NCBI GenBank assembly: GCA_021292105.1
Contig: CM037871.1
Span: 58,488,866 to 58,552,865 of the forward strand
From: Anadara kagoshimensis
Lineage: Eukaryota > Mollusca > Bivalvia > Arcoida > Arcidae
Length of the DNA: 64,000 bases
Direction of reading: 5' to 3'
A program made the translations under genes and the position numbers. Below, one piece after another: positions 13,884-14,824 of this stretch; position 1 is the first letter of the stretch, and every line of letters starts with the position of its first letter. Below the pieces are notes generated by a model. That model had not been told where the DNA came from. It was given only the letters and a program-made list of their open reading frames with translations, and did not search any database.

Positions 13884-13991
13884 AGGAAACACACAACCTA
13901 TCACAGAAATCAAGAGGTCGCTTACGACGTTCAGCAGTCGGAAATATTGAAAAAGCAAGAACAAGAACATTAAAAATGACGTTAGTTATAG
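13884..13991 (+). CDS. GnRH/AKH/corazonin-type receptor, exon for intracellular loop 3 to start of TM6
   Basis: This is an internal coding exon of a rhodopsin-class neuropeptide receptor in the plasma membrane. It follows a good acceptor (a T-rich tract ending ttttag at 13883) and ends at g|gtatgt. The 108 bases give two bases of a split codon, 35 codons and one trailing G. The peptide is basic and loop-like (RGRLRRSAVGNIEKARTR), then enters TM6 with RTLKMTLVI. The trailing G joins the TT that opens the exon at 19933 to make Val, so the helix continues [14 protein letters not shown] without a break. Loop 3 plus the base of TM6 is the G-protein contact region in this family. The exon end is embedded in the first unit of a 37-bp minisatellite. 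The codons before it (TM1-TM5) were not found in the window. Family assignment rests on motif recall, not on a search. Confidence 0.85.
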
Positions 13992-14824
13992 GTATGTAGG
14001 CATATAGTAAAAATGACGTTAGTTATAGGTATGTAGGCATATAGTAAAAATGACGTTAGTTATAGGTATGTAGGCATATAGTAAAATGACGTTAGTTATA
14101 GGTATGTAGGCATATAGTAAAAATGACGTTAGTTATAGGTATGTAGACATATAGTAAACATGACGTTAGTTATAGGTATGTAGGCATATAGTAAAAATGA
14201 CGTTAGTTATAGGTATGTAGACATATAGTAAACATGACGTTAGTTATAGGTATGTAGGCATATAGTAAAAATGACGTTAGTTATAGGTATGTAGGCATAT
14301 AGTAAAAATGACGTTAGTTATAGGTATGTAGGCATATAGTAAAAATGCCGTTAGTTATAGGTATGTAGGCATATAGTAAAAATGCCGTTAGTTATAGGTA
14401 TGTAGGCATATAGTAAAAATGACGTTAGTTATGGGTATGTAGGCATATAGTAAAAATGACGTTAGTTATGGGTATGTAGACATATAGTAAAAATGACGTT
14501 AGTTATAGGTATGTAGGCATATAGTAAAAATGACGTTAGTTATAGGTATGTAGGCATATAGTAAAAATGACGTTAGTTATAGGTATGTAGGCATATAGTA
14601 AAAATGACGTTAGTTATAGGTATGTAGACATATAGTAAAAATGACGTTAGTTATAGGTATGTAGACATATAGTAAAAATGACGTTAGTTATAGGTATGTA
14701 GGCATATAGTAAAAATGACGTTAGTTATAGGTTTGTAGGCATATAGTAAAATGACGTTAGTTATAGGTATGTAGGCATATAGTAAAAATGACGTTAGTTA
14801 TAGGTATGTAGGCATAGAGTAAAC
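13972..14824 (+). repeat. 37-bp minisatellite duplicating an exon end and its 5' splice site, 23 units
   Basis: Twenty-three head-to-tail units of 37 bp (a few units 36). Each unit is aaaaatgacgttagttatag, identical to the last 20 bases of the receptor exon ending at 13991, followed by the intron bases gtatgtaggcatatagt. Unit 1 is the real exon-intron boundary. Every later unit is a copy of it, and all but one keep GTATGT (the unit near 14730 has GTTTGT). Variants include gacat for ggcat, atgccg for atgacg (two units) and atggg for atagg (two units). Units abut with no unique spacers. Reading through any unit in the receptor frame gives Ile-Gly-Met-stop. Confidence 0.97.

Follow-up and report, generated by a model that had tools for sequence, protein, structure and literature searches.

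The window analyzed here, a stretch of 64,000 nucleotides of contig CM037871.1 of the bivalve Anadara kagoshimensis (GCA_021292105.1, positions 58,488,866 to 58,552,865 of the forward strand), contains several plus-strand exons of a predicted receptor gene. A coding exon of 108 nt (13884–13991) specifies intracellular loop 3 and the start of TM6; it is followed by an intron of 5,941 bp (13992–19932) and a second coding exon with the remainder of TM6 (19933–19996). The donor at 13992–13993, referred to below as donor 1, is in phase 1 and joins the acceptor at 19932|19933. The peptide spliced from the two exons finds its best PDB matches in GnRH receptors and aligns with them without a gap across the junction (9u4y, E = 1.2e-12; 9u4w, 1.8e-12; 7br3, 4.6e-11). 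Further downstream are the TM7 exon (24084–24172, donor GT at 24173) and an exon for the C-terminal tail (29236–29597, GMFTINFKREFTRCCCGLNNAW...), the downstream end of which is taken as the end of the open frame. Some 52 kb before the TM6 exon there is a TM5 exon whose donor fits the acceptor phase of 13884–13991. The phases, which were read by eye, agree from one exon to the next, and the spliced TM5–TM7 stretch matches the Pfam family 7tm_1 with an E value of 2.4e-22. No convincing match to TM1–TM4 exons was found in the window and the 40 kb upstream of it. Taken together, these matches indicate a GnRH-receptor-like GPCR of the rhodopsin family, intact where it is seen. The TM6 intron also holds broken frames of what we take to be a mariner-like transposase (17125–18182, minus strand).

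The end of the loop 3/TM6 exon has become part of a minisatellite. Between 13972 and 14820, 23 units follow each other on the plus strand, and each unit combines the final 20 nt of the exon with the opening 17 nt of the intron. Tandem Repeats Finder reports the array at 13971–14823, with a period of 37, 23.1 copies, 97% matches and a score of 1601, well within the definition of a minisatellite as head-to-tail units of about 10–100 bp. The spacing is 37 bp for 21 units and 36 bp for the other two (units 4 and 22), which are well separated in the array. Twenty of the 23 donors read AG|GTATGT, two read GG|GTATGT (units 13 and 14) and one reads AG|GTTTGT (unit 21). There are nine unit types, the commonest of which accounts for nine units, including unit 1, which carries the gene's own exon end, while the last unit is set apart by a single base close to its 3′ end. 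A variant present in one unit mostly recurs in its neighbor or in the next unit but one (5 and 7, 6 and 8, 11–12, 13–14, 18–19), as expected from slippage or unequal exchange. The initial annotation, made from the letters alone, had proposed the exon, its donor and acceptor and the GPCR identity, as well as an array of 23 units built from exon end and intron start with this same donor tally, and all of this is borne out. Its array ran to 14824, but the units stop at 14820 with a few matching bases beyond, and its figure of 37n bases added by the use of later donors is roughly right, the exact number being 37n or one to two bases less on account of the two shorter units.

The array is confined to a single locus. 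A whole-genome search returned seven matches, all seven within the array itself, and a dispersed satellite or mobile repeat was rejected as its source within the limits of that search. The array RNA folds unremarkably (z = −0.75 over 177 nt), so that a structure hiding or exposing the donors was rejected, and a search of 13000–30000 for known RNA families gave no match at the gathering score. Conceivably, the array could act as DNA, for example as an enhancer made of repeated TGACG half-sites of the CREB/ATF type. The motif TGACGTTA is indeed present in 21 of the 23 units. However, TGACG is there because the exon codons ATG ACG TTA contain it, and a function of this kind is improbable in the extreme.

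The same contig (C15) carries a GnRH-receptor-like paralog near 40.74 Mb (C15:40727000–40756999, L032–L034). Its TM6 intron interrupts the same codon in the same phase and begins with a plain donor, ATTG|GTAAGA, that has no array. Some 0.5 kb inside the paralog intron there is a different array (351 bp × 3), which has no strong donor motif. Over 117 shared codons, the two receptors have 88 identical residues, with a dN of 0.15 against a dS of 2.9, which is saturated, and the proteins are therefore constrained. Since the frames of the exons found are intact and dN is far below dS, a pseudogene was rejected. The array-free donor at the same codon and phase also means that the intron was in place before the array and did not arise by tandem duplication of an AGGT segment. 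This bears on another reading, in which the intron would be removed stepwise or internally: donor 1 would use the AG in one of the later units as its acceptor, which would rebuild the same donor, as in intron gain by AGGT duplication. AG|GT is present in 21 of the 23 units, and tandem AGGT duplications have been tied to introns in ATP2A1 and in fission yeasts (PMC4974935). Besides the greater age of the intron, the AG copies lack a pyrimidine tract, with 8 pyrimidines in 20 positions (three copies counted), whereas the four receptor acceptors within the window have 13–16 in 20, and we give this reading hardly any credence.

Which donor is used matters a great deal for the receptor. When the spliced product is computed with 1, 2, 3 or 22 added units, the protein ends in ...KMTLVIGM-stop, and since the stop sits in unit 1, every other number of added units leads to the same product. 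The truncation after Ile-Gly-Met beyond the first donor, foreseen in the initial annotation, is thus confirmed, and donor 1, at a conserved intron position, is the only one able to give the full receptor. The donors themselves offer little to choose between. Scored with a human donor matrix, AG|GTATGT reaches 8.0, the GG variant 5.7 and the GTTTGT variant 4.0, compared to 7.4 for the paralog donor and 10.3–12.5 for the three other donors of the receptor gene. The 20 donors are identical over nine bases, so position alone tells them apart.

In splicing experiments with duplicated, equal 5′ splice sites, the intron-proximal copy is reported to be favored. The same preference is described for two competing donors of DOK7. 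Such a rule would be damaging here, and the fact that the gene is intact and constrained suggests that donor 1 is used for the receptor mRNA, as the coding need would demand.

One possible consequence is that the equal donors compete and divert transcripts to truncated or decaying isoforms in a share set by the copy number, tuning the output of receptor. The shared early stop and the identity of 20 of the 23 donors over the 9-mer would suit such competition, as would the alternatively spliced forms of oyster GnRH receptors mentioned in PMC7355911 and the downstream repeat donors reported for IFI6. However, the array columns show no sign of donor conservation: two of nine donor columns vary, against 4 of 28 other columns (Fisher p = 0.62, with the column of the one-base deletion left out). 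Selection on the array donors was rejected on this non-significant result, as it was for a second array described below (p = 0.15), and nothing points to selection on the extra donors. Since the paralog donor also does without an array, we regard tuning by competition as unlikely.

Minisatellites with donors are a repeated feature of this gene. Three consecutive receptor introns contain arrays with a donor motif, starting at 13972, 20378 and 24244. The second (20378–20691, 66 bp × 4.8, four genome matches, all its own) has AAG|GTAAGT donors on the minus strand only, and these cannot act as donors in the receptor RNA. The third (24244–25667, plus strand, 104 bp × 13.7) starts 71 bp after the TM7 donor and contains 14 near-optimal donors, 13 reading CAG|GTAAGT and one AAG|GTAAGT, the last of which (GT at 25669) is at the array edge. 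Its first donor is 158 bp downstream of the TM7 donor, and the array donors score higher than the latter. Its relatives are diverged or weaker and dispersed, with at least 66 genome matches including its own, and the unit resembles a tRNA-derived repeat. Downstream of the receptor exons found is another array, 45 bp × 7.8, made of CAGGTCAAAGC... units (61266–61618).

In a scan of 134 kb (the window, 40 kb upstream and 30 kb at the paralog), a strong donor motif was present in 3 of the 13 arrays printed, all three in the receptor gene, where the chance by composition is about 1% each; the tally is post hoc, and one of the three is there by construction. The scan kept the best-scoring row with at least 2.8 copies, a filter that removed, for instance, the arrays at 18469 and 61266 of the window.

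These arrays are relevant to the idea that U1 bound to the repeated donors protects the 5.9-kb intron against premature polyadenylation. By the same human matrix, the 20 AG|GTATGT donors of the array are the only plus-strand sites of the intron that reach 8.0, and the next-but-one intron likewise begins with 14 near-optimal donors. However, GTATGT is a middling match to U1 (8.0, compared to 12.6 for the best site on that matrix), none of the four arrays printed for the 40 kb upstream, which make up most of the preceding intron of about 52 kb, holds a strong donor motif, and arrays with donor motifs are widespread in the genome, at 0.8 to 1.7 times the control. A role as a U1 sponge thus seems very improbable.

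That last figure comes from a whole-genome search for three donor octamers spaced 14–44 bp apart, with the motif read backwards as the control. The counts are of overlapping matches rather than arrays. AGGTATGT gave 2401 spaced matches against 1932 for the control, AGGTAAGT 1569 against 904 and AGGTGAGT 568 against 700. Donor-octamer arrays are thus common. As a single word, AGGTAAGT has 44,761 matches compared to 55,194 for its control. Relative to its control it is therefore enriched in arrays more than singly, so a bias in favor of exon ends is conceivable.

From among the matches listed, 33 distinct arrays were examined (12, 8 and 13, one set per octamer), with a flank before the first listed donor of about 600 bp for the first 20 and about 200 bp for the last 13. 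They are not all independent, as repeat families and duplicated copies recur. Five of these 33 listed arrays, in four genes, begin where a supported coding exon has its donor, and their unit includes the exon end. The most extensive is at a NOA1-like exon (L078, C1:15781236–15784202, minus strand), where the match to PDB NOA1 (E = 5.8e-15) extends through the final codon of the exon and is followed by at least 67 consecutive donor units of 38–46 bp. AGGTAAGT is retained in all 67 listed units and 8 of the 27 tail columns are variable, a difference that is not significant (p = 0.15) in a listing that selects intact donors. L075 and L076 are at exons of a thioredoxin-domain protein (best PDB match TXNDC5, E = 1e-7, followed by QSOX1, E = 5e-5; Pfam Thioredoxin below the cut-off), and since the two copies are 92–99% identical, they count as one event. 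L084, at C2:49.04 Mb, belongs to a sodium:solute symporter (PF00474, E = 5.1e-9), and L073 to a coiled-coil-type open frame of 200 codons with Pfam matches below the cut-off. L084 stands out in that the frame past donor 1 stays open over the approximately 100 bp examined and gains 16 residues per 48-bp unit (VSLSFLYPLWIFSAYE), so the repeat could give in-frame isoforms like those of IFI6.

Other arrays are less certain. L081 and L083 are possibly, even probably, at coding exon ends. They have open frames with acceptor-like sites 93 and 107 nt upstream, but neither has a family match, L081 has no PDB match either, and the seven PDB matches of L083, each of 10 residues and to repeat or designed propeller proteins, were not counted; random sequences with the same composition contain an open frame of at least 41 codons in 11% of cases. 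L094 is plausible as an array at a coding exon end, and L097 is a weak candidate. In the sequence examined, a stop lies within 62 nt past donor 1 in L073, L075, L076, L078, L081 and L083. None of the 13 AGGTGAGT arrays among the matches listed was confirmed at an exon end. The remaining arrays were read as intronic or repeat-derived, although some extend past the flanks of about 200–600 bp, and in several of the first 20, donor-like sites continue upstream, so that an exon lying where the array really begins could have escaped notice.

A rough extrapolation from the 100–125 Mb or so covered by the first two listings suggests that the genome has tens of such exons. Real donors are probably a large share of AGGTAAGT words, and arrays anchored at exons may thus arise simply at the base rate. 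A hot spot of arrays at exon ends was set aside on these grounds. Arrays of an acceptor motif were also seen, with nine flanks examined out of ten blocks listed, all on contig C1. Among these, L087 and L088 (C1:21.46 and 21.82 Mb, 99% identical) have units ending in TTTTACAG and abut an open frame of 103 codons; they possibly represent a repeated 3′ splice site. A bolder proposal is that amplification of exon 5′ splice sites recurs at tens of exons, with a few to more than 60 near-identical competing donors, and that the copy number acts as a heritable rheostat, fixing the proportion of transcripts that leak into truncated or decaying isoforms, in the present case of a GnRH-type receptor. We consider this doubtful.

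The most satisfactory explanation, and one that we hold to be likely, is that a young minisatellite grew across the exon/intron border and has been tolerated, most likely as a neutral element, since the protein is made from the first donor. Slippage or unequal exchange would have duplicated a 37-bp stretch straddling the border and carried it on to 23 units. The seed was probably a short match between TTAAA... on the exon side and GTAAA..., located 37 bp further on within the intron. The sequence on the exon side is ACATTAAAAATG and that at the far end is GAGTAAACACGG, and the TAAA match they share could have seeded the first duplication. All the extra units lie 3′ of the original donor and would be intronic whenever donor 1 is used, leaving the coding sequence untouched and the array free to drift. 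Some transcripts might leak to later donors, in which case the receptor would be cut at the start of TM6 or the mRNA lost to nonsense-mediated decay. The presence of this kind of array at other exon ends in the genome supports the view of a by-product.

Several points argue against tolerance. The use of donor 1 is deduced from the coding need; the intron-proximal preference, together with the DOK7 case, would make the array damaging; AGGTAAGT is more frequent in arrays than its single-word count would suggest; and the units of the NOA1-like array all keep it while the tail columns vary. The initial annotation had offered three readings, donor competition, a U1 sponge and neutral tolerance, of which the last fits the sequence evidence best, while the first two find neither support nor refutation in the sequence alone.

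Models of splicing disagree on which of several identical donors is chosen. If the genes with such arrays do give correct products, then among dozens of equal donors it is the first that prevails in vivo, even with better decoys downstream. Such an outcome would fit exon definition or early commitment and would contradict the intron-proximal preference. With several such exons in one genome, from the 23 units here to at least 67 at the NOA1-like exon, donor choice becomes testable by ordinary RNA-seq. The array also represents a route by which a repeat may grow into a coding gene without touching the protein. What we have here is a 5′ splice site turned into a minisatellite, which looks like a recurrent by-product of repeat growth and has its main value as a natural test of donor choice.

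Several known systems invite comparison. Intron gain by tandem duplication of an AGGT segment (the Rogers model, ATP2A1 and the multiple 24-bp duplications of fission yeast, as outlined in PMC4974935) likewise involves tandem copies of a segment containing AG|GT, but in the receptor the repeated segment covers a donor that already existed, in an intron older than the array, and the copies are intronic. The MSY2 minisatellite of primate DDX3Y is also in the 5′ region of a transcript, and its exon is alternatively spliced; in PMC3039753 it is a promoter and start of transcription rather than a series of donors. The oyster GnRH receptor has several alternatively spliced transcripts, one of them named Cg-GnRH-R-TF (Rodet 2008, as cited in PMC7355911), so variant receptors would not be strange in this family.

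The closest parallel is human IFI6 (6-16, G1P3). The initial annotation knew of no described case of this form, but the IFI6 minisatellite was described as early as 1995 under a title that credits it with “multiple splice donor sites” (Turri, Cuin and Porter, NAR 23:1854), and with five of the 33 listed arrays alike, the receptor array is not unique in its own genome either. No further donor minisatellite besides IFI6 emerged from a literature search judged partly from titles and the openings of abstracts. According to PMC4526556, two downstream repeat units of IFI6 serve as donors and give rise to three mRNA species. The genes are unrelated. As in IFI6, the array straddles an exon/intron border with a donor in every unit, its units being able to supply splice donors to a transcript. 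The downstream donors of IFI6 yield coding isoforms, the units being in frame according to a citing text. The receptor unit has an in-frame stop instead, and with 1, 2, 3 or 22 units added, later donors close the frame and yield no full receptor. We therefore class the receptor array as a variant of the IFI6 type, not as an ordinary member.
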